From the NCBI GenBank assembly GCA_017417055.1, contig JAFPZX010000021.1, positions 1-64,000 on the forward strand: DNA of 64,000 nucleotides, written 5' to 3'. A program made the position numbers and the translations under genes. Numbering within the stretch: the first letter of the stretch is position 1; each line of letters begins with the position of its first letter. The notes under the pieces are model-generated. The model was not told the DNA's origin and searched no databases. It worked only from the letters and a program-made list of their open reading frames with translations. Below are positions 22,265 through 33,494 of this stretch, piece by piece. Origin of the DNA: Anaerolineaceae bacterium (GTDB taxonomy: Bacteria; Chloroflexota; Anaerolineae; Anaerolineales; Anaerolineaceae).

Positions 22265-22331
22265 TAACAACAGACATCAAAAAAAGCCCCCAAAAATCAT
22301 TTTTGGGGGCTTTTTTTGATGTCTGTTGTTA
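22265..22331. terminator. Perfect 67-bp palindrome acting as a bidirectional terminator
   Basis: Two perfect 32-bp arms surround a TCA loop. The inner stem GCCCCC-AAAAA with T7 tracts on both sides is a textbook intrinsic terminator in both directions. The outer 14 bp, TAACAACAGACATC and its mirror, include the tpiA stop codon on the right side. It separates hsp20 and tpiA. Confidence 0.9.
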
Positions 22332-23087
22332 GGCCGCAGCGGCTTTGACGATTTCGGTGAAATCCGGAGCCTTGAGGCTGGCGCCGCCGACGAGAGCACC
22401 GTCGATATCGGGCTGGCCGAAGAATTCAGCAGCATTGGAACCCTTCACGGAACCGCCGTAGAGAACACGGATCGCCTGGGCAGCTTCTTCACCATACATG
22501 GAAGCGTACGGTTTGCGGATGTAGTCAGCGATGACTTTGTTTGCATCCGGGCCGGTGGCAGCAAGGCCGGTGCCGATTGCCCAAACAGGTTCATAAGCGA
22601 CGATGATCTTTGCGGCTTCTTCAGCGCTCAGACCTTTGAGACCTTCAAGAATCTGACCGGAGACAACTGCTTCTGTCTTTCCACCCTGGTTTTCTTCGAG
22701 GGTTTCACCGACGCAGACGATCGGGGTCAAACCGTGCTTGAGTGCGGCAAGTGTCTTTTTGTTTACGGTTTCATTGGTTTCACCAAAGTAGGTGCGGCGT
22801 TCGCTGTGTCCGATGATGACATACTGACCGAGTTCTGCAACCATGTTCGGAGCTACTTCACCGGTGTAAGCACCTTTTTCTTCCCAGAAAAGATCCTGGG
22901 CACCGCAGCCAATTTCAGAACCCTTGAGGGTTTCGGAAACACAATAAAGGGCGGTGAAAGGCGGGCAGACCACACGGTCAACACTGCTGATTCCATTGAT
23001 CATCGGGATCAGTTCTTCCATTAATTTAACACCTTCAGCAACGGTCTTGTTCATCTTCCAGTTGCCGGCGACCATCGGTTTACGCAT
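22329..23087 (-). CDS. tpiA: Triosephosphate isomerase
   Basis: A 252-residue cytoplasmic TIM-barrel enzyme that interconverts dihydroxyacetone phosphate and glyceraldehyde 3-phosphate in glycolysis. The start MRKPMVAGNWKMNKT contains the substrate Lys in NWKMN; the catalytic His is in IGHSERRTYFGE near residue 96 and the catalytic Glu in VAYEPVWAIGTG near residue 168. The phosphate loop GGSVKGSNAAEF is present. The length is standard. The AGGAG ribosome site is about 13 bases from the ATG, slightly far. It is monocistronic and its stop codon forms part of a long perfect palindrome. Confidence 0.97.
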   Translation of the reverse strand: MRKPMVAGNWKMNKTVAEGVKLMEELIPMINGISSVDRVVCPPFTALYCVSETLKGSEIGCGAQDLFWEEKGAYTGEVAPNMVAELGQYVIIGHSERRTYFGETNETVNKKTLAALKHGLTPIVCVGETLEENQGGKTEAVVSGQILEGLKGLSAEEAAKIIVAYEPVWAIGTGLAATGPDANKVIADYIRKPYASMYGEEAAQAIRVLYGGSVKGSNAAEFFGQPDIDGALVGGASLKAPDFTEIVKAAAA

Positions 23088-23311: not shown

Positions 23312-25045
23312 CTATTCTCTGCTGCGCAGACGGCGGACACCGATGATAACGAGCAGCAGACCTGCGAGCAAGCCCAGCATGGAAGGAATGTTCCAGCCTT
23401 CCGCCATACCTGTTTGCGGCAGCTCTTTGGCTTCTGTCTGTGCAGTGGGCTGTACAGTGGAATCCGTTTCATCAAGAACGACGACTTCAATTTTTTCCGG
23501 TGCCGCTTTGGTAGGAACCAGCGTGGGTTTTACCGTTGGTGTGACTGACTGATCTGTCTTATTCGCATCTGAAACGGTATCTGCTGTCTCCTGATTTCTT
23601 TCGGTTGTGTTGACAACATCCGTGCCGTCAAGTTTGACGGGGCCCTGTTGTGTGGGCACAACAGCCGCCATTTGAATGACGATCGGTGTAGCGGTGGGCT
23701 GAACCGGTGCGGGTGTCGGAGACAGAGCGATAACAGTGACTTGCGGAGTTGGTGTGTTAGTCGGGCTGCTGCCAAAAAAACCTGTAAACATATTCGTGAA
23801 CCAGTTCCCGCCTTGTGTCTCTTCAACTGTCTGAGTCGGTTCTTCTGTTGAAATAATGATTGTCTCAGTTTCCGGTGTTTCTTCCGTTTCGAAATCAGTC
23901 CCAAAGCGTTCCTGCTGCAGCGCTGCCGTTTGTTCGGAAGAAAGCGGATTCAGGCTGACTTCAATGACCGGTTCAGCGTCGGCAGATTCCTCTTTTGAAG
24001 ACAGGATGACTTCCAGAGGGGTTTTGTCAAGCCACACGATGGAAGCAGAACTGTCGGGAATCTCATCCGGGGCAACTTCTTCCATTGACAGAATGTATTC
24101 CTTCCCGTCGATAGTAAAATTGTTGTTTATCGTTTCTTTCTTTGTTTCTCTACTGTCTTCCGATGTGTCTTCTGATATATTATCAATGATCGGTTGACCT
24201 GCGGATGCTTTATCCTGCGGTTTTACAGTTACAGCATAGGGTTTTGAATCGAGCCAGGCGACAGCCGGCTGGTCCTCTGCCCCGGTTTTCTCTTCAGTGC
24301 TCATGTTTTTATCGGAAACCGGAGCCGAATCGGCAGCATGGATCATTTCAGATGGCTGTGTTGGTGTCGGTTCGGCAGCCGCAGTTTCTGTAGATACAGT
24401 TTTGGTCATTCGGAGCAAGTAGTCCTGATTTCCGATATGAACAACACTGCTTTGGTCTGCCTGAGACAGCTGACTGATATCTGTTTCACTGATCGGGTCG
24501 AGATGTACATCGTATGGCTGGTCATTCAGCCAATAGACAGAGGTAACAGACTGTGGCTGTGCGGCATCGCCGATCGCTTCTATTGACAGCGCAAACGGCT
24601 TTCCCTCGATCCAGACGATAGAAGAGGTGCTTTCCGATTGCGGAGAAGCAGGATTGCCGCTGCTGTCAATTGTCAGCGGTTCCAGATCCATATTGATTCC
24701 CTGTTGTGATCCGTTTGTTTGAACCGGTACAATGTATTGCGCATTGGCTTTGGAGAGGAATCGTGCTTCCAGTTCAGCAGAATCAGCCTGTTGATCGTTG
24801 ATCGCGGTTATTGACGCTGCCTGCTCAGCCACTGCCGGCTGGTTTGTGGGCAGGGTTATGGATGTTTTGGTTGTATTTTCCACCGGGCGCAGTGAAGGCT
24901 GACGGGCAGCTATTACACCGCCGATGACGGCAACGCCGGCCAGGATCAGCAGCCAGGACGGAAATTTCCCGCGGCTGCTGCCCTTTTTTTTCTTTTTGTT
25001 CTCCATACGGAATTCTTTGTCAAAAGTATCACCTTTTCGATTCAT
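23312..25045 (-). CDS. LPXTG-type surface protein with repeated WLDxxPY units
   Basis: A 577-residue protein, last gene of the seven-gene locus. A basic cytoplasmic N-terminus (KKKKKGSS) leads to a membrane segment at about residues 30-46. The outer part has about six short repeats of a strand-rich unit, such as IVWIEGKPFALSIEAI, VYWLNDQPYDVHLDPI, VAWLDSKPYAVTVKP and IVWLDKTPLEVIL, separated by acidic Ser/Thr-rich linkers. After a Pro/Thr-rich stretch the C-terminus has LPQTGMAEGW, a hydrophobic helix and RRLRSRE: a sortase sorting signal. Thus both ends carry membrane signals. Sortase itself is not in the window. The start has an AAGGAGAG ribosome site. Role unknown; likely attached to the envelope. 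Confidence 0.72.
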   Translation of the reverse strand: MNRKGDTFDKEFRMENKKKKKGSSRGKFPSWLLILAGVAVIGGVIAARQPSLRPVENTTKTSITLPTNQPAVAEQAASITAINDQQADSAELEARFLSKANAQYIVPVQTNGSQQGINMDLEPLTIDSSGNPASPQSESTSSIVWIEGKPFALSIEAIGDAAQPQSVTSVYWLNDQPYDVHLDPISETDISQLSQADQSSVVHIGNQDYLLRMTKTVSTETAAAEPTPTQPSEMIHAADSAPVSDKNMSTEEKTGAEDQPAVAWLDSKPYAVTVKPQDKASAGQPIIDNISEDTSEDSRETKKETINNNFTIDGKEYILSMEEVAPDEIPDSSASIVWLDKTPLEVILSSKEESADAEPVIEVSLNPLSSEQTAALQQERFGTDFETEETPETETIIISTEEPTQTVEETQGGNWFTNMFTGFFGSSPTNTPTPQVTVIALSPTPAPVQPTATPIVIQMAAVVPTQQGPVKLDGTDVVNTTERNQETADTVSDANKTDQSVTPTVKPTLVPTKAAPEKIEVVVLDETDSTVQPTAQTEAKELPQTGMAEGWNIPSMLGLLAGLLLVIIGVRRLRSRE

Positions 25046-25062
25046 GATCGCTCTCTCCTTAC

Positions 25063-26154
25063 TCAGCGGTTCAACCGGGGTTTTTCGTCTTGCAGTAATT
25101 CAATATTATTGACTGGCAATGTAATGATCGTGTCAGCGTCGATGCAGATATGAACCTGATCTCCAATTGGTTCTGTTTCCCCGTCACCGCTGCTCTCCTG
25201 TGGCAAAAGCTCGGTTACAAAACCGATTTCTCCGGCATAATAACCGTCCAGGATCCGCACGCGGCTGTTGATGGAAATATCTGCAAGCATGCTGTTTTTG
25301 TCAGCAGTATATTCTTCCTGTGGAATGATGATTTCCGCTGTCTGCGGCATGTTTCCACGCGCAGGAGCGGAATAAAGATAGGCGCATTTGATGATATTTT
25401 CGCCTAACAGGTTGTAAACGGGATCCGAAAGCCTTCCGGATCCGATGATGTCCGTGACGATAACCGGGAAGGGCAGCTGTTCCGCGATTGGGAGCAGTGC
25501 GGAGGGCAGTGATCCGAAGATCAGGCCGCCCGGTGAAAGGCGTGCAGTTGATTGCAGAACTTCCGGGTCATAACAGGTGTTCGCGAACACGACTGAACCG
25601 GCCATAGCCATGGAGAGACTTTGTGTGTTGAAAATTCCTTCTTTCGCGATGTCGTTTACCGTAAGCAGGATGCCCTGTCCGGTGCGGTTATTTCCCCAAA
25701 CGCCGGCGGCATAAGCTCCGATGGTTTCAATCACAGCGCCGCGGTTCGGAATGATTTCCGTGACCGTTCCGGGAAAACCTGCGGATACGGATTCAAGATT
25801 TTCCGCATCTGCCTCAAAAATAAGATTTTCGGAACAGACACCCAAAAAACGTCCGCTGTATAAAGCATTCAGTGTTCGTGTTTTACGATCGGAACGGCGG
25901 GCGATCGGTTCATTGACGGAAACAAAATCGCCCTCATTGATAAGCAGATAATCCTGAACGCTGCTGCTGCGCGGAAGCTCAAGTGCTTCATAAAGATTGA
26001 CTGAAAAATGCGTTTTCCAAACCTTACGCCAGGCAACGGGCATGGTTGGATCCGTGATTTGTCCCGGAAATACCATGACTGTTCCGTTGCGCGTAAGTTT
26101 TCTCGCAATTCGGACCGGTCCTGAATAAATTATTTTTGCAGCAGCAGTCTGCAT
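25063..26154 (-). CDS. Unknown protein with barrel-sandwich-like and KOW-like regions
   Basis: A 363-residue cytoplasmic-looking protein without signal peptide or membrane segment. Near residues 70-80 is INEGDFVSVNEPIARR, similar to a lipoyl/biotinyl-type hammerhead edge but with no modified Lys motif; the middle part contains GGLIFGSLPSALLPIAEQ; residues about 295-320 read SRVRILDGYYAGEIGFVTEL, a KOW-like fold segment. It lies immediately after the GlmL-like ATPase gene and 17 bp before the LPXTG gene, with a good AGGAGAG ribosome site. I cannot name the family. Position suggests that it works with the ATPase. Confidence 0.65.
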   Translation of the reverse strand: MQTAAAKIIYSGPVRIARKLTRNGTVMVFPGQITDPTMPVAWRKVWKTHFSVNLYEALELPRSSSVQDYLLINEGDFVSVNEPIARRSDRKTRTLNALYSGRFLGVCSENLIFEADAENLESVSAGFPGTVTEIIPNRGAVIETIGAYAAGVWGNNRTGQGILLTVNDIAKEGIFNTQSLSMAMAGSVVFANTCYDPEVLQSTARLSPGGLIFGSLPSALLPIAEQLPFPVIVTDIIGSGRLSDPVYNLLGENIIKCAYLYSAPARGNMPQTAEIIIPQEEYTADKNSMLADISINSRVRILDGYYAGEIGFVTELLPQESSGDGETEPIGDQVHICIDADTIITLPVNNIELLQDEKPRLNR

Positions 26155-26162
26155 CGTCTCTC

Positions 26163-26271
26163 TCCTTAGTTAGCAGCCAGTGGTCAGTAGTCAGTGGTCA
26201 GTGGTCAGTGGTCAGTGGTCAGTGGTTACTCCTCACTTCTTACTTCTTACTCCTTACTCCCGCCATTCGCC
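26163..26271. repeat. Degenerate 7-bp repeats (GTGGTCA units)
   Basis: At least six GTGGTCA units in direct order at 26175-26227 are followed by CTTCTTACTCC units. The stop codon of the GlmL-like gene (26254-26256) lies inside the block. Confidence 0.8.
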
Positions 26272-28005
26272 TAATTCATTTTTCCAGCGTTCCAGCAGGT
26301 GAATCTGTGCTGTCCGGTCTTTTGGCATTTCAAGCGTCTCTCCCCGCATATCAAACACCAGACCAAAACAGCCTGCTTTGAACCCGATGGACGTCCATGT
26401 CGGAATTCCCGGCAGTGTGACGGATTTGCTGACATTGAACCAGTCTAATTCATAATAACGTCCATATTCCAGCGGGATCCGTTTGATCCCTCCCTGGATG
26501 ATGTCCACCTTTTCGATATTTCCGCCTTCATCCCGCAGCGATACGCTGAACACACGTTTCCCTTCTTTGACAGCAGAATGTGGGGTGATCACGCGTCCCA
26601 GGTTCAGGAACATAGCCGGTGAAGTGACCTGCGCTGCCAGTTCGCGGTTGACTCCAGCCAGGCCGCCTACCGCGGAAGCCAGGCCATTCATGTCCAGATA
26701 GTAATCATTCAGACCGAATGGATGCAGACTATTCATCCCGATCCGCAGGGCATCGCCGGGGTCTTCTACATTCCGCAAAACGGATCCGCCCAGCAGAACC
26801 ATACCCAATGTTCCATCGGTGAGTTGGGCTTTCGCCGGATTTTGATCAATGGCGGCACGAATCAGGAACTGCGCTAATATCTGTTCAATTTCCGCCGAAT
26901 AACTGTTAGCGGGGATCAATTCCGGATGGACGGATTTGTTCATGATGTAATCCGTCAGTTCACTTTCCTTCAGTTGAAAACTGATCCAGGGTAGAATCTC
27001 ATTCACGGAGTATTTTTCCAATAATTCGGGTAGAGTCCGTCCAATCCCCCCGTCAAATTTGCTCATTTCCAGATCAAGATTTGCACCGAAAGCTGAAAGT
27101 GTGCGGTTGGCTCCGACTTCAATACCCAATACAGAATGGTTGGCACGGTTGATGCGGCTCAACAGACGGATGCAGCGTCCATAGGCGAAATCTCCGGAGA
27201 TAGCGGCACATTTCGTCTCCCGCTGAAGCTGAGCGATTGCCGGATTTTTCTCTTTTCCAAAATGCAGCATGACCTTTTGGAAGGCTGTTGTCGGAGAAAG
27301 CCGGGCTTCTTGTGCCCCCATGATGTTGTCGGAGAAGGTGATATCCGCCATTTGATGGAAGACCCGTTCAAACTGAGCACGTGCTTCCGAGTTGCCCATG
27401 TATAGGATCGAAGGACGATTCTGTTCATCGATACTCTTGCAGGCCATCAAAAGGATTTCTCCCAGCCGGTAGAGCGCATGTTCCGCACCTTTTTCTGTCC
27501 CGCCGCTGACCAGAACAATATCCGGATCAGAGGCAATCAGGGTGCCGATGTTGTCGGTTAGTGATTTTCCATCCATTGCGCATATAGAGGCAGAAGCTGT
27601 CAGACCATTTTTCCGCAGCAGATTTTCCATTGCTTTTATTGAGGTATCATTCGTGAGTCCCATCAGAACCACGCGGGGCATTTCACCACCGCTCCAGGTG
27701 AGTACGACCTGATCAGCTCCGATCATGCCAAGCTTTTGAGGAATGACGATTTTACCGGTATCATCCAGAAAATGCCGTTCCAACGCGGATTCCAGTTTTT
27801 GAACAGCACCGGAAATGGATTGGTATTCAACTTCTCCGCTGTCAGAATAAACGGTCCGGTTTGAGGCTGTACCGGTAAACTGGTAACGTCCGTTTTCCCG
27901 TTCAAACAGGCTTACACGCGTGTTGACCGTACCGATATCGATCGTTAACACGATATCGACAGTTTCCTCATTTGTTTGGAGCGGTTTTTCCTGTTTTTTT
28001 GCCAT
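26254..28005 (-). CDS. GlmL/MutL-like ASKHA ATPase
   Basis: A 583-residue protein of the glutamate-mutase-L family, part of the actin/Hsp70/sugar-kinase fold. The phosphate-1 loop is LTIDIGTVNTRVSLFE near residues 19-34; other conserved blocks are LVSGGTEKGAEHAL near residue 160 and a phosphate-2-like segment LGIEVGANRTLSAFG near residue 290, with LVLLGGS-type MVLLGGSVLRN near residue 415. In clostridia GlmL is encoded with glutamate mutase and is thought to protect or reactivate the B12 enzyme. No mutase subunit lies here; the gene is set among membrane, zinc-ribbon and surface proteins, so another role in that locus is likely. Its stop codon is supplied by a 7-bp repeat block. Confidence 0.78.
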   Translation of the reverse strand: MAKKQEKPLQTNEETVDIVLTIDIGTVNTRVSLFERENGRYQFTGTASNRTVYSDSGEVEYQSISGAVQKLESALERHFLDDTGKIVIPQKLGMIGADQVVLTWSGGEMPRVVLMGLTNDTSIKAMENLLRKNGLTASASICAMDGKSLTDNIGTLIASDPDIVLVSGGTEKGAEHALYRLGEILLMACKSIDEQNRPSILYMGNSEARAQFERVFHQMADITFSDNIMGAQEARLSPTTAFQKVMLHFGKEKNPAIAQLQRETKCAAISGDFAYGRCIRLLSRINRANHSVLGIEVGANRTLSAFGANLDLEMSKFDGGIGRTLPELLEKYSVNEILPWISFQLKESELTDYIMNKSVHPELIPANSYSAEIEQILAQFLIRAAIDQNPAKAQLTDGTLGMVLLGGSVLRNVEDPGDALRIGMNSLHPFGLNDYYLDMNGLASAVGGLAGVNRELAAQVTSPAMFLNLGRVITPHSAVKEGKRVFSVSLRDEGGNIEKVDIIQGGIKRIPLEYGRYYELDWFNVSKSVTLPGIPTWTSIGFKAGCFGLVFDMRGETLEMPKDRTAQIHLLERWKNELGEWRE

Positions 28006-28019
28006 TTGATTGATGTCCT

Positions 28020-28700
28020 TTATCTGCCAAGAGCACGGAACGAGTCTAACAGTTCGGAAATGTGATTTACCAGAATGTTTGCCGCGGTAATGAATACCGC
28101 AGCTGCGATAGCACCAAAGGTAAATCCGATGAGTATATTTCCGAATACTGATTCAGTTTTATTTCCTGCCGTTTTTTTCCGGGAGATATCATAGTGTCGG
28201 GTAAACAATAATGCGGTGATTGCGCTGACCAGGACGGTGACTGCTTTCACCCAATACCAGACATTTGATTTTTCTTCAGAGGGGATCGCTGCCAGTCGGA
28301 ACTGTCCGGCGATTGACCGGACAAATGCCGGAATTGTGCCGCCAGCGGCTCCAATCACGAGAACAACCGCGCTGATGCTCATCAGAATTATAAAAATGAT
28401 TTTTCCGCCGCTTTTTGAACCGGTATAAATCTTCATAAACAGCAGGATGACCCCGATGGTTACGAGAGCCAGCCGCAGGATCTGTGCTGTGGTGAGATTT
28501 GCTCTCCCGTTGATGATGTCAAGGATCAGCGGGTAAAAATAACTTTCAGTAAGTAAAACACAAATATATGCGGAAACGGCGCCGCTCAATATCGCCGTAC
28601 CGAGACGGAATAGATAATTGTCCCCGAAAATGAGGCTGAAAGCACTGAGGCTGAGGAAAAGCCCGCCGATAACAAATGCAAGTTCATAGCCTTCAGTCAT
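28020..28700 (-). CDS. Multi-pass membrane protein of unknown function
   Basis: A 226-residue protein with about six to seven hydrophobic segments spread over the whole length, and no enzyme motif. The start chosen, MTEGYELAFVIGG, follows a GGAGACGGAG ribosome site; a longer frame adds nine basic residues. The start overlaps the stop of the upstream zinc-ribbon gene by eight bases (ATGACTGA), so the two are co-translated. The GlmL-like gene starts 14 bp downstream. It is probably the membrane part of the complex built by this locus. Confidence 0.72.
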   Translation of the reverse strand: MTEGYELAFVIGGLFLSLSAFSLIFGDNYLFRLGTAILSGAVSAYICVLLTESYFYPLILDIINGRANLTTAQILRLALVTIGVILLFMKIYTGSKSGGKIIFIILMSISAVVLVIGAAGGTIPAFVRSIAGQFRLAAIPSEEKSNVWYWVKAVTVLVSAITALLFTRHYDISRKKTAGNKTESVFGNILIGFTFGAIAAAVFITAANILVNHISELLDSFRALGR

Positions 28701-31077
28701 TATTCTCCGTCTCCTTTTCGGATTCATTTTCAGAAAATTGCTGTGTTTTTTCAGCGGCGTTCTTTTTATTGTATTTTGGTTCCGTTTTCATGGTCTTGCT
28801 GATGATGCCGCCCAGCCATGCAAGCGGAACGAGTGCGCATAAATACCAGACTGCAGCCTGTGTCCGCCCGGCAAAGTGGACGGTTTCACCGTAATGGTTC
28901 AGATCTATGTCCCGGCTGAGGAAGCTGGAGACCATCCCTGATTGGAGATATGGTTTCAAAACAGGTTCCAGCTGTCCCGGTCCCATCACGTGCAGCAGAC
29001 GGTTGCCGCCTGTTACGGAGATCTGTTCGGCCCAGCTGCGGACGGATGTGATTTCGGATGTAAGCAGCCATACATTTTCCGGGATGGTTCCATTTGCGAG
29101 TCTGCTGCGGATGGAAATCACTCCTGAAGGCCACCAGCCTGCAAATTCAACTACTCCATCATATTGGCTGAGGATTTGCTGTGTTTCGGGCATGGCGGCA
29201 GGATTGAGCACGGAAAGGTAGACATGGTCTGCGTGTCCTGTCAGCGATTGGATCACCATTTCAGCGGCGGTGTGCATTTCTGAGCTGTAAGCAGGCGTGT
29301 AATCCATGACTACCAGCGCGTCTCCTGTATGATTATCTGTATGTTGATAAAAATCCAGTGTTTCATCAGCGGCCGGAATCATTGGGATGTTCAGGTTGTC
29401 TGCAATATCGCTGACAAGCAGCAGGATGATACCGCAAAGCGCCAGAGCAAGCCACAAGATTCTTGCACCAAAGCTGATTTCCCGGTTGTTTTTTTCTTTG
29501 ACCGGCTGAACATAATTCTCAGCCTGAATGATTTTCCCCAGAATGGATGAGATCATCCGCTGCTGGTAACTTGTACTGCCGGGATCATCCGGGATGCTGC
29601 TGCGTGAAAAGGTCCGAAAAGCCGGATCTTCCGGTGACTGCGGCAATGCCATATCCGCAGCGCCGAAGAGATCCCAGGGAATATCCTGATCATCGGGAAA
29701 TTCACTGCTGTCGTACATATTCTGCCCGTTCAGATCATCGGAATCAACATCCTTGCTGTCCAGTTCATCTTCATCGTCATTTTCAGGAAGAATCAGCGGA
29801 TTGTCGATCACTTGCGGAATGTAAAAACCGTGAACAGGTTTCAGAACCTCGGGAGTGCTGCTTTCCGAATCTGTTTTTTCTGCTTTATCCGGAACATTGC
29901 CGGTGGTGTCCGATGACTTTGAGTCATTCTTATCCGGTTTTGCTGCCGGGCTTTTTTCAGGCTGCGGAGTACCTTCGACTTCATAGCCGATATTGCGGAG
30001 AATGCGGTCAAGCACCTCTGCGTTGGGGCCAGTATTGTCTTCCGGTATGGTGATTTCAGAATAATCCGGTTCAGGTATTTCATTATCTTCCGGATGGTTC
30101 CCGGAATAAAACATTGTGCCGGAGCGGTTTTCAGCCTGTTCAGCCGGCGTCAGTGAACCGGAGCTGCTGTTCATGTCGTTCAGTAAATCAGAAATCAAAC
30201 TGCCGCTTTCCGGTTTGTATTCATCGTAATGGATATTTGAAGTTTGTGGATTTTCAGCTTTATCCGGTTCAGCTGTGCTGGATGATGCTGCAGCGAAAAT
30301 TTCCTGTGCATCTATGACTTTTGTCGGTGATGCGCTGTTTTCCAATGCAGGGTCATCATATTCAGCGGATTTCAGCTCCTGTGTGTTTTCATCTTCTTCC
30401 ACCAGCGGAGAATCCTGCTGCCACCAGAGCGGCAGCTGAGAGATTCCATCATCCTCATTTGCGCTGTTTTCTTCATCCGCGGGGTGGCGGTCATCCCATT
30501 TCCGTGCCGGCCGTTCGGTTTTGAAATCGTCAAGCAGGGAAACACTTGTGCCTTTATATTCGGCCGCAACAGCTTCGGGTTTTTTGTCTTCCCATTTCCG
30601 GGCAGGGCGCTGGATGGAAAAATCCGCTATGCCGGGAATGTTTTCTTCGAGAGTTTTCGGTGTATTTTCGTCCGGCTCAATGAGCGGCGGTTCGATCATA
30701 CTTTGGAACATCGGCTGGTAAACCTGATCCTGTTTTTTCTGCTTTGGGGTCCGGAAGGTTTTATTGGGTGAAGAAGACTTGGATGAATCCGGTGTACCGA
30801 ATAACCAATTGGTGTATGAATCAAAATCCATCGGTTTCTTTTCCGCGGGTTTCAATTTATCTTTGAGCCATTCGGGTACAGGACTGTCGAGATCGGGTTC
30901 ATCATTTTGAATTGCTTGCGGAGCAGTTTCCACCGGTTTTTCCGGTTCTGCCGGGTTTAGCTCATCCCGGAAGATTTCACTTGGCAGGGTCTTGAGGTTT
31001 GCCTTGCAGACCTGGCAGAATTCACTTCCTTCAGGGTTTTCGCTGCCGCAAATCGGACAAATGATGGTGTGATTCAT
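28693..31077 (-). CDS. Zinc-ribbon protein with long acidic region and extracytoplasmic domain
   Basis: A 794-residue protein. It starts with a zinc ribbon (CPICGSENPEGSEFCQVC at residues 7-24). Residues about 40-525 are acidic, rich in Pro, Ser, Asp and Glu and probably disordered, with the motif RPARKW occurring twice (followed by EDK and DDR). A membrane segment at about 545-565 leads to an outer domain of about 190 residues, and a second membrane segment near 745 returns the chain to a charged tail. The outer domain contains ALVVMDYTPAYSSEM, which resembles a Rossmann-like strand, but I cannot place it. The gene is ATGA-coupled to the preceding membrane protein gene. Confidence 0.7.
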   Translation of the reverse strand: MNHTIICPICGSENPEGSEFCQVCKANLKTLPSEIFRDELNPAEPEKPVETAPQAIQNDEPDLDSPVPEWLKDKLKPAEKKPMDFDSYTNWLFGTPDSSKSSSPNKTFRTPKQKKQDQVYQPMFQSMIEPPLIEPDENTPKTLEENIPGIADFSIQRPARKWEDKKPEAVAAEYKGTSVSLLDDFKTERPARKWDDRHPADEENSANEDDGISQLPLWWQQDSPLVEEDENTQELKSAEYDDPALENSASPTKVIDAQEIFAAASSSTAEPDKAENPQTSNIHYDEYKPESGSLISDLLNDMNSSSGSLTPAEQAENRSGTMFYSGNHPEDNEIPEPDYSEITIPEDNTGPNAEVLDRILRNIGYEVEGTPQPEKSPAAKPDKNDSKSSDTTGNVPDKAEKTDSESSTPEVLKPVHGFYIPQVIDNPLILPENDDEDELDSKDVDSDDLNGQNMYDSSEFPDDQDIPWDLFGAADMALPQSPEDPAFRTFSRSSIPDDPGSTSYQQRMISSILGKIIQAENYVQPVKEKNNREISFGARILWLALALCGIILLLVSDIADNLNIPMIPAADETLDFYQHTDNHTGDALVVMDYTPAYSSEMHTAAEMVIQSLTGHADHVYLSVLNPAAMPETQQILSQYDGVVEFAGWWPSGVISIRSRLANGTIPENVWLLTSEITSVRSWAEQISVTGGNRLLHVMGPGQLEPVLKPYLQSGMVSSFLSRDIDLNHYGETVHFAGRTQAAVWYLCALVPLAWLGGIISKTMKTEPKYNKKNAAEKTQQFSENESEKETENND

Positions 31078-31703
31078 TTATCCTCCTTGGAAGGCAGTTT
31101 TCCGGAAAACAGAAAACGCAGACCGGTAATTGCCCCACCGATAGCGATACCCAGCAGCAGACCCATGATGCAGCCCTGTGGGATGCTTTCGATCCAGCTG
31201 ATGAGGTTGTTCATTGTATCGGATGTGTTGAATACTTTTGGGAGCCCGCAGTAAATCGCGAGAAAGACGATCATACCGACAAAAAAAGCTGCTTTCATTG
31301 CGGAAGGTGTCTGTGATGGCAGACGGTAGACCGCATAAATCAGACTGAGACATACAAGACCGGCTAAGGCGGATTCGAGCGTCTTCTGAACGAAAAATAT
31401 TACTCTGTTCAGTTCGGTGGATTCGGGCCCTTTGATGAGTCCGAGCAGCAGAACTGCAATGAATACACCGAAACCGATGATGCGGATTACACGCATTCCG
31501 CCGTCGTCGCCTGCTTTTCTTATCTGTAAAATAGCGGTATCGGCGATGGTGAAGAAAAGAATCGCCGCGAACAGACGTTCCGCCCACAGGAAGGTTTCTG
31601 AACTCACTGTCTGGAGAAATGAATTGTCAACAAAAAAGGATGCGAAAAGAAATCCTCCGACGAGGATCGAAAGAATCGCAAACAGGGTTCGTGACCTTTT
31701 CAT
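31074..31703 (-). CDS. Multi-pass membrane protein of unknown function
   Basis: A 209-residue protein with about six membrane segments; the loops are short and contain no catalytic pattern I recognise. The ATG giving MKRSRTLFAILS follows a GGGAGAG ribosome site; a TTG six codons earlier lies in that site and is rejected. Its stop overlaps the start of the zinc-ribbon gene (ATGA), and the first gene of the locus ends 31 bp upstream. The C-terminal segment IMGLLLGIAIGGAITGLRFL is glycine-rich, as in packed helix bundles. No function can be assigned. Confidence 0.72.
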   Translation of the reverse strand: MKRSRTLFAILSILVGGFLFASFFVDNSFLQTVSSETFLWAERLFAAILFFTIADTAILQIRKAGDDGGMRVIRIIGFGVFIAVLLLGLIKGPESTELNRVIFFVQKTLESALAGLVCLSLIYAVYRLPSQTPSAMKAAFFVGMIVFLAIYCGLPKVFNTSDTMNNLISWIESIPQGCIMGLLLGIAIGGAITGLRFLFSGKLPSKEDK

Positions 31704-31734
31704 TTCTTTTCTCTCTCCCAATTTATATATTATA

Positions 31735-32478
31735 TCAAATTCCTGTCAAACCGACACCGGCAAATATAACAATTGCTGCAATAATTAACAGGCGCATGAC
31801 ATCCATCGCCAAAAGGGAAGAATTTGTTTTTTCTGTATGGTCTAATGAATCTGGAATTTCCGTGTATTGTTCTCCGACAAAAACCGCGTCTGCATTGACC
31901 GCTGCAACAGCCTGTGATATCAAATCATCACCACCTACACACAGCACTTCACCTTTGCTGCAGAGTGTATCATTGAGCGCGGTGGACGGGCCGAATGAGC
32001 CGATGGAAAGATGCAGCGCGCTTGGTTCTTTTTCCAGTGACGCGGCATTGCCTGCTGTGTGTTCGAATGGTGCGGCGGCGGAAAACACAGCGCAGTTGGG
32101 ATCGTAAGAATTTCCGTAGTTGGCCGCTTCCATGCCTGAACGGACAGCGTCTTTTGCAATATTGACAGGGAATCCGCCCGGAGCGGTGATTGCCCAGGGC
32201 TCGTCGGCAAAGGCCATTTGTGCGGAAACGGTTTCCGCGGTTTTGGCTGCCGCCAGAACCGCGCCGCTGCTGAGCGCGGCTTCTCCGCCGTCATTGATGT
32301 CAAGATGGATAGGGGCTGATTCTTCAAGGCTTTTTGCGATTTGTGAACGGATCAGACGGTCTTTGGAGCGGGTGTATGCCCGGCTTGATAACCTTATCCT
32401 GTTCCCAATTAATCTGCTGATTATGTATATGACTGCCATAATCAGGATAATAACCGCAGCTAATCTTGAAGTTTGCAT
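31735..32478 (-). CDS. DUF6754-like membrane protein, first gene of the locus
   Basis: A 247-residue protein with one membrane segment at each end (residues about 5-25 and 225-245) and a soluble domain between. The domain has THLDINDGGEAALSSG-like text (HLDINDGGEAALSSGAVLA), then ALHLSIGSFGPSTALND and CVGGDDLISQAVAAVNADAVFVGEQ, which I tentatively match to DUF6754 proteins of Chloroflexota. A good ribosome site (AAGGAAGG) and a palindrome overlapping a -10-like TATACT precede it, making this the likely promoter-proximal gene of the seven-gene locus. Function unknown. Confidence 0.68.
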   Translation of the reverse strand: MQTSRLAAVIILIMAVIYIISRLIGNRIRLSSRAYTRSKDRLIRSQIAKSLEESAPIHLDINDGGEAALSSGAVLAAAKTAETVSAQMAFADEPWAITAPGGFPVNIAKDAVRSGMEAANYGNSYDPNCAVFSAAAPFEHTAGNAASLEKEPSALHLSIGSFGPSTALNDTLCSKGEVLCVGGDDLISQAVAAVNADAVFVGEQYTEIPDSLDHTEKTNSSLLAMDVMRLLIIAAIVIFAGVGLTGI

Positions 32479-32828: not shown

Positions 32829-33494
32829 TTACTTCTTACTTTCTGCTTTCCTGCTTGCGGCGTAGCGGTACCAGGCGATCAGCATGTCGCCGATAATCAT
32901 GCCGCCGATGATGTCGGTGAGCCAGTGCACACCGGCGAGCATACGGGTGACGATCACGATAAATAGTACGATGAGGGAACAGGCTGTTGCGGCTGTTTTC
33001 AGTTTTTCATTCCTAATATAGATATTCCACTGGTCAATTGCGGAAACCATCACCACCCAGGCGATGACGGTATGCGTGGAGGGGTAGGATGATTCCAGAC
33101 CCTTATCACGCAGGATCGGACGGTAATTGATGATCAGGACCTTGTCAAACAGGAGATAAAGTGCCGCGGTGAGGATATAGAGCATGATCAATATCGACAG
33201 ATTGCGGTCTACTTTTGACAGGGATTTCCGGTCGATCAGCTGTTTCAGGAAAAACAATCCAAACCCCGCGGCAGTCACAAAACATACAATTCCCGCGGCC
33301 GAGCTGATCTTGTAAAATGTATCATTTTGTCCGAATCGGGCAAAAAATTGGGTGTTGATGGTGGCAAAACCTAAATTGGTTCCCTGGACACCCACCGGCT
33401 GAACATCAACGGTTGCGACCAGGATCGTCGCAGCAATTGCAAGCACAGTCATGATGATAACTGTCTTCATGGTTTCTTTTGGAATTTGTTTCAT
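32829..33494 (-). CDS. PAP2-family membrane phosphatase
   Basis: A 221-residue integral membrane protein with about six membrane segments and the three PAP2 phosphatase motifs: KVLIINYRPI (K-x5-RP form) near residue 120, SSYPSTHTV (PSxxH) near residue 143, and SRMLAGVHWLTDIIGG (SRxxxGxHxxxD) near residue 190. Such enzymes dephosphorylate lipid phosphates such as undecaprenyl pyrophosphate or phosphatidate on the outer face of the membrane. The AGAGGT ribosome site is good. The stop codon is inside a 7-bp repeat block and the last residues (AESKK) are partly encoded by it. Exact lipid substrate unknown. Confidence 0.87.
   Translation of the reverse strand: MKQIPKETMKTVIIMTVLAIAATILVATVDVQPVGVQGTNLGFATINTQFFARFGQNDTFYKISSAAGIVCFVTAAGFGLFFLKQLIDRKSLSKVDRNLSILIMLYILTAALYLLFDKVLIINYRPILRDKGLESSYPSTHTVIAWVVMVSAIDQWNIYIRNEKLKTAATACSLIVLFIVIVTRMLAGVHWLTDIIGGMIIGDMLIAWYRYAASRKAESKK

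Follow-up and report, generated by a model that had tools for sequence, protein, structure and literature searches.

The locus described here lies on the minus strand at 23312..32478 of a 64-kb window, the window being the whole stretch of DNA analysed (positions 1-64,000 of contig JAFPZX010000021.1, assembly GCA_017417055.1, from an Anaerolineaceae bacterium), and comprises seven genes grouped around an ATPase that resembles GlmL/MutL. In our judgement, which is an evenly balanced one, the locus may well encode a membrane-associated ATPase complex of Chloroflexota that has not been described before, built on an ASKHA (actin/Hsp70-fold) protein. In Anaerolineae, in presumed Chloroflexia and in some other lineages, the ATPase gene is joined to four membrane genes, which encode a DUF6754 protein, two proteins with six transmembrane (TM) helices and a zinc-ribbon protein that has an outer domain. 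An LPXTG-type gene follows the set in the named loci, most of which are from Anaerolineae. Genes are referred to by the names of their clusters: c2 (DUF6754), c4 and c3 (6-TM proteins), c0 (zinc-ribbon protein), c1 (the ATPase), c5 (a soluble protein), c7 (the LPXTG-type gene of the relatives) and c9 (a small upstream gene). The source genome is 85% complete, and this bears on every genome-wide negative given for it.

Conservation of the gene set was analysed in named genomes, using one scan with an ATPase alignment (its first row being the relative L067). The best 80 of 373 confirmed stretches were kept, a sample leaning to Anaerolineae; by their titles all are from Chloroflexota except one, Chthonomonas. 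Hidden Markov models (HMMs) of the families were built from 21 loci (the window and L062-L081), the window's own proteins included, and two of the 80 loci (L082 and L157) are the same DNA as the training loci L067 and L065. In all 81 loci (the 80 named ones and the window), the detected members lie on one strand and follow the order c9-c2-c4-c0-c3-c1-c5-c7; all eight families were detected in 59 of these and c9 in 64. Fifty-five loci were fetched with more than 6.6 kb of upstream and 3 kb of downstream sequence; all of these long loci contain c2, c4, c0, c3, c1 and c5, and c9 and c7 are each found in 54 of them. The alignments A2, A3 and A4 (62, 63 and 64 rows) were drawn from the window and the 80 loci after removal of 16 loci that were short or nearly identical to others and of loci covering at most 85% of the profile; L152 and L153 (A2), L151 (A3) and L152 (A4) were removed by hand.

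The same association is seen at the level of whole genomes. DUF6754 was found in 56 of 251 Chloroflexota genomes and the c0 outer domain in 59, which include all 56 with DUF6754. The three outer-domain genomes without a DUF6754 match are G176, whose locus (L080) carries c2, c4, c0, c3, c1 and c5, G136, where c4, c0, c3 and c1 are present, and G184, where one contig holds c0 and c3. The DUF6754 gene and a MutL-like gene share contig and strand in 44 of the 56 genomes (gap of 2.2-6.3 kb) and are on separate contigs in 11; the remaining genome, G105, has no MutL match. The preliminary description had made its reading depend on the neighbours being conserved together, and they are, in order and strand, in the six genes of the long loci and in the co-occurrence of the two markers. 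Given one order and one strand in all 81 loci, the genes of the set are not neighbours by chance.

The ATPase had been assigned to the GlmL/MutL kind of ASKHA protein, an assignment which Pfam bears out: c1 of the window scores 110 bits on the MutL model (PF13941; cut-off 27), over residues 19-461 and profile positions 1-446 of 450. It stays far below the cut-offs of the curated GlmL models (NF040745, 36.9 versus 475 bits; TIGR01319, 25.4 versus 204), and L067, a typical locus ATPase, reaches 101.7 on NF040745. Three control GlmL proteins (L002, L003 and L004) pass both curated models, with 563.6-598 bits on NF040745; another control, L005, passes TIGR01319 alone (437 versus 475 on NF040745). 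The ASKHA core and the phosphate and adenosine motifs are thus shared with GlmL/MutL (PF13941, NF040745), but c1 differs from GlmL in an extra C-terminal region with a VIDARGRPL motif, in its separate tree branch and in its neighbours, which are membrane and zinc-ribbon proteins with no mutase in the window's genome. The family form of this motif is GxVIDARGRPL, and the window has GLVFDMRGETL. Across 119 ATPase rows, which include a few duplicates, the phosphate-1 Asp is kept in 102, the phosphate-2 Asp in 99 and the adenosine Gly in 117; the Asp and the first Arg of the DARGRP motif are each kept in 118. In a tree of 52 ATPase rows, which draws on 11 of the 80 named loci and omits three duplicate rows, a branch with 100/100 support separates the four GlmL-type proteins from all the others. 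Taken by itself, the ATPase represents a new branch within a superfamily already known.

It could be argued that the ATPase is nonetheless a true GlmL, a helper of glutamate mutase, as its score above the Pfam MutL cut-off would allow. The distribution of the mutase speaks against this. Glutamate mutase (PF06368) exceeds the cut-off in only 4 of the 251 genomes (G176, G089, G137 and G178), with weaker matches in 13 more, and no match was found in the window's genome, in agreement with what had been claimed for this locus. Constant co-occurrence of the mutase with this ATPase would have told the other way; among the 59 outer-domain genomes, G176 alone has an above-cut-off mutase. In this genome, which belongs to the window's genus, the mutase and a GlmL adjoin at 1.24 Mb and the locus ATPase lies separately at 0.76 Mb. 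The GlmL in question is the control L003 (G176:C1:1242388-1245214; 563.6 bits versus 475), and its gene is directly beside that of the mutase. Since G176 thus has a separate true GlmL next to its mutase, the locus ATPase is not the mutase helper. Taken with the curated models and the tree branch, these results make the role of glutamate-mutase helper so improbable that we reject it, and they support the view that the locus ATPase is a GlmL-like ASKHA protein that does not serve glutamate mutase.

The account previously given of the membrane part also holds, apart from a correction to the topology. The protein c2 of the window is slightly under the Pfam DUF6754 cut-off (23.4 versus 27 bits), but it has two TM helices by hydropathy and falls in one BLAST family with the clear DUF6754 genes of its relatives; c4 and c3 are multi-pass proteins with six helices each. 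In c2 the mean number of lysines plus arginines rises from 0.3 before the first helix to 4.1 after it (85 of 86 proteins usable), so that the positive-inside rule predicts a cytoplasmic DUF6754 domain. In c0 the corresponding means are 3.0 before the first helix, 0.7 after it and 3.3 after the second (92 of 95 usable), which predicts that its C-terminal domain is outside the cell. The zinc ribbon, acidic region and outer domain ascribed to c0 are all accounted for by this topology, by CxxC pairs at residues 7 and 21 and by an N-terminal part that is 22% acidic in the window. This N-terminal part is rich in WL motifs in most of the 21 loci, with 48 in L077, 41 in L076 and 13 in L067 against shuffled means of 2.05, 1.63 and 0.40, respectively; they are few in L080 (1 versus 0.25), and L073 has none.

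For c5, a soluble KOW-like protein had been proposed. Solubility stood (no TM helix), and the KOW match of the window's protein proved weak (14.4 bits versus a cut-off of 22.3). At E ≤ 0.5, RnfC_N is matched by 49 of 62 members of the family (best 5e-6), KOW by 15 (best 7e-4) and NQRA_N by 6; the window's own c5 does not match RnfC_N at this threshold. Nothing convincing emerged when solved structures were searched with the c5, c1, c0 and c2 profiles: the top hit paired c5 with a lysozyme binding repeat (5i8l, 27 residues, E 0.0001) and was followed by NusG and SPT5 fragments (E 0.08-0.09). The weak resemblance of the N-terminal part of c5 to the barrel-sandwich domain of RnfC/NqrA, and the presence of two 6-TM proteins, recall the Rnf/Nqr complexes. 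However, Pfam lists no Rnf family for c3 or c4, and an ATPase takes the place of redox subunits. The paired 6-TM subunits of Rnf/Nqr have conserved cysteines; the c3 and c4 consensus sequences contain none.

A smaller core was found where the membrane genes are lacking. The survey covered 20 loci with a MutL-like gene and without DUF6754 (L081 and L164-L183, minus L178). In 14 of them c5 follows the ATPase on the same strand. No c2, c3, c4 or c0 outer domain was detected at E ≤ 1 in the stretches fetched for these 14, and DUF6754 and the c0 outer domain were not found in their genomes, c3 and c4 having been searched at the locus only. The other six are L081 and L164, with the ATPase alone, L179-L181, where membrane genes but not c5 were found, and L182, which corresponds to the GlmL region of G176. 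The L164 gene (G184:C45) encodes a different MutL-like protein, in an open frame of 1268 amino acids (aa) without c5, with weak family likeness (81 bits). A same-strand gene directly upstream has zinc-ribbon CxxC pairs near its start in 11 of 15 loci (not seen in L167, L168, L169 and L175), and in seven loci (L081, L166, L170, L171, L172, L177 and L183) such genes carry repeated WL motifs. These core-locus zinc-ribbon proteins end near a TM helix in L165 and L173 and in a basic aromatic tail in L166, L172 and L183.

The partner c5 is present in 138 of the 251 genomes, and its pairing with MutL was compared in 127 of these. A MutL match is listed for 90, with the two genes within 2 kb in 65 of the 90, in all 65 on the same strand. 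For 13 c5 genomes without a listed MutL match, outside the presumed Chloroflexia, a wider ATPase HMM finds an ATPase in 12 (in G137 with 30 bits) and none in the fetched stretch of G241. The ATPase-c5 pair is thus the most widely shared part of the system, in most cases accompanied by a zinc-ribbon protein. The label 'full' operon needs 5 changes on the 52-row tree. It follows from the core-only loci that in many lineages the ATPase works in the absence of the membrane set, which is either an add-on or has been lost there.

Several observations weigh against a single ATP-driven membrane complex. Core-only lineages may mean that two linked systems are involved. Of the 25 cases where c5 and MutL are not adjacent, 22 are in families f23, f33, f59 and f62, which we take to be Chloroflexia, and c5 is there elsewhere in the genome, apart from the ATPase. 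In the window itself, c1 keeps the phosphate-1 Asp but has Glu at phosphate-2 and RGET in place of RGRP, and c0 has a single WL motif (shuffled mean 0.20); because of these three features ATP hydrolysis by the window's protein is uncertain. Finally, no two of c0, c1, c2, c3, c4, c5 and c9 are related by profile comparison (hhalign), which also gave no support for kinship of c2 with the c0 outer domain or of c3 with c4. In presumed Chloroflexia, the gene adjoining c5 codes for a histidine kinase in L185 and L200 and for a response regulator in L184. At L200:156-8241, presumably from Roseiflexus, c5 lies upstream of genes for a hybrid histidine kinase, a response regulator and ATP synthase.

Three other explanations have to be weighed. 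ASKHA proteins of the GlmL and diol-dehydratase-reactivase types probably act as chaperones or reactivases, and the locus ATPase might serve another, perhaps membrane, enzyme in this way, with the membrane genes as its client or docking site. The nearest named families, GlmL and GlmL-related, the core-only lineages that have no membrane set at the locus, and a methylmalonyl-CoA mutase gene located upstream in L191 (on the same strand and separated from the ATPase by further genes; a fragment from this BLAST family is found there in L198) would all fit. But glutamate mutase is rare, as seen above, no enzyme gene recurs inside the operon, and methylmalonyl-CoA mutase, though present in 194 of the 251 genomes, was not found in the window's genome or in the carriers G176, G072, G010, G023 and G033. 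We regard such a chaperone role as rather unlikely, while still a serious contender, and reject its specific form, a helper of methylmalonyl-CoA mutase, that enzyme being a near neighbour in L191 and L198 and not found in the window's genome and several other carriers. The same-strand run of L191 consists of the methylmalonyl-CoA mutase gene, further genes, the GlmL-like ATPase, c5, tsaE and two TsaD-family genes.

The ASKHA protein could instead bind nucleotide with little turnover and recruit partners to the membrane, as FtsA does, in a sensing or scaffolding complex. Replacement of the phosphate-2 Asp in 20 of the 119 rows, the window's included, the basic tails or TM anchors, the repeated WL motifs, which fit multivalent docking, and the position of c5 beside a kinase or response-regulator gene in presumed Chloroflexia are consistent with this; on the other side, both Asp residues are kept in most members, and FtsA itself is not replaced, being present in 235 of the 251 genomes including the window's. 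A sensing scaffold seems to us unlikely. That the neighbouring genes are functionally unrelated and merely kept together by chance is very improbable. It is true that c5 is unlinked in presumed Chloroflexia, that core-only loci lack four of the genes, and that c8, an opposite-strand gene outside the set, is found nearby in 30 of the 80 named loci, so that some of the shared gene order in Anaerolineae simply reflects common descent. Against this, order and strand hold in all 81 loci while the annotated flanks of distant lineages differ (PFK and KorAB in L077, RadA/Sms in L076, triosephosphate isomerase (TIM) in the window), and DUF6754 and the c0 outer domain co-occur in 56 of 56 genomes.

Other known systems were also compared. 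With FtsA- and PilM-type proteins the locus ATPase shares the ASKHA fold and, possibly, a tether, which would be a basic tail or the TM helix of a partner; but FtsA coexists with the locus ATPase, and no FtsA, PilM, PilN or PilO family was found at E ≤ 1 in a Pfam scan of the seven proteins. Replacement of FtsA was rejected on its distribution, the window's genome having one FtsA match. No FtsA match was found in G126, G174, G182 and G190 (family f54), four nearly complete genomes. A defence or phage origin was likewise rejected: at E ≤ 0.01 no PADLOC model matched any of the seven locus proteins, and no PHROGs model matched the six that remain when the LPXTG protein is excluded. The operon is also carried by G238, which we take to be Chloroflexus aggregans. 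Septal channels of filamentous Chloroflexota, for which the study describing them found no sepJ, fraC or fraD homologues, share with the locus their phylum and their place in the envelope, but the same study saw no clear channels in C. aggregans (PMC7332563). Septal channels are therefore a poor fit as the product of the operon.

For the membrane-associated ASKHA complex, the following way of working may be proposed. The zinc-ribbon/WL protein c0 would tether both c5 and the ATPase to the cytoplasmic membrane. Where the operon is complete, a nucleotide-driven change in the ATPase would be passed to the DUF6754 domain and the 6-TM proteins and from there to the outer domain, and the complex could thereby assemble, move or gate something in the envelope; candidate tasks are export or assembly of envelope material and a filament or gliding function. 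The LPXTG protein would lie farthest out; sortases are plentiful. That the whole is an ATP-driven envelope machine, in which an ATPase captured from the GlmL family and its widely shared core have been coupled to a four-protein TM complex, is a tentative proposal and one that we hold as possible rather than probable. The envelope-spanning machine or secretion or assembly system suggested in the preliminary description is likewise conjectural.

The genes of the window are listed in Table 1. All seven minus-strand open reading frames of the preliminary description were found at their positions. It had also described overlaps at the 5' end followed by short gaps: there is indeed a 4-bp overlap of c4 and c0 and, if c3 starts at the ATG at 28700, an 8-bp overlap of c0 and c3 (35 bp with the listed start), but c2 and c4 are separated by a 13-bp gap, as calculated from the coordinates. 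The gaps further on are 14 bp (c3/c1), 99 bp (c1/c5) and 17 bp (c5/LPXTG gene). Hydropathy gives 2, 6, 2, 6, 0, 0 and 2 TM helices in gene order. The window's proteins, with the exception of the LPXTG protein, were assigned to their families by BLAST links (E < 1e-5); the BLAST families extend to 20 of the 21 loci for c0 and c1, 13 for c4 and c3, and 12 for c5. No c9 was found in the window; most relatives have it upstream. A PAP2-family phosphatase gene (32829-33494, same strand) lies just upstream of the locus, and the TIM gene (22329-23087) just downstream.

Table 1. Genes of the locus in the window, in gene order; lengths in amino acids
Gene	Positions	Strand	Features
c2, DUF6754-like	31735..32478	-	247 aa; two TM helices (6-24, 222-240) flanking predicted cytoplasmic domain
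c4, 6-TM membrane protein without known family	31074..31721	-	215 aa
c0, zinc ribbon, long acidic region, TM 540-558, outer domain, TM 741-759	28693..31077	-	794 aa
c3, 6-TM membrane protein without known family	28020..28727	-	235 aa; homologous part begins at ATG 28700
c1, MutL/GlmL-like ASKHA ATPase	26254..28005	-	583 aa; extra C-terminal region of ~120 aa
c5, soluble; barrel-sandwich-like N-terminal part, KOW-like C-terminus	25063..26154	-	363 aa
LPXTG protein	23312..25045	-	577 aa; N-terminal TM, three short repeats, P/T-rich linker, LPQTG, C-terminal TM

The last gene had been called an LPXTG-anchored protein, and its product indeed has an LPQTG motif at residue 542 and passes TIGR01167 (19 bits versus 15.9), though not the Pfam LPXTG model (10.6 versus 20). 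The c7 HMM does not match it; in place and architecture it is the counterpart of c7, without homology being implied. Relatives of this protein are found in 7 of the 14 genomes of the genus, the window's included. Sortase-domain matches number 26 in the window's genome (G000) and 47 in G261, within a range of 2-47 for the genus; with the LPQTG signal and sortases in the same genome, the protein has what marks a sortase-anchored surface protein. Other genomes in the same search have 1-15 sortase matches.

Our literature search covered open-licence PubMed Central. It returned no mention of DUF6754, and no title on this locus was seen among the matches listed for GlmL, ASKHA, MutL and Chloroflexota-signature literature. 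In G118, which we take to be Chloroflexus aurantiacus, KorA/KorB genes stand beside the ATPase gene, near 0.32 Mb. For the korA/korB pairs of C. aurantiacus, the genome paper gives Caur_0249/Caur_0250 and Caur_0952/Caur_0953 (PMC3150298). The position in G118 fits the first pair, which would put the start of the operon near Caur_0251. No mention of Caur_0251-0256 was found in the same literature, and Caur_0245-0250 occur in the genome paper and in one unrelated paper. These results support the description of the seven-gene set as an uncharacterised conserved locus for which no published study was found. As no known system with this make-up was found in Pfam, NCBIfam, PADLOC, PHROGs or the solved structures searched, the system is counted as new, a status which rests on missing matches and not on demonstrated function.

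The operon, as judged by the c0 outer domain, occurs in roughly one in four of the Chloroflexota genomes sampled (59 of 251), and the core partner c5 in about half (138 of 251); the carriers include genomes that we take to be Chloroflexus, Roseiflexus and Herpetosiphon. According to the septal-channel study, the septal channels of filamentous Chloroflexota are structures without known genes, and for gliding Tad pili are so far no more than a proposed candidate (PMC7332563). A defined list of envelope genes is therefore directly testable in these organisms, and the proposed machine could supply a missing part of the filament, gliding or surface-assembly biology of Anaerolineae and Chloroflexia. 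The locus would then be a case in which the fold of a helper of cofactor enzymes has been taken over for another role.

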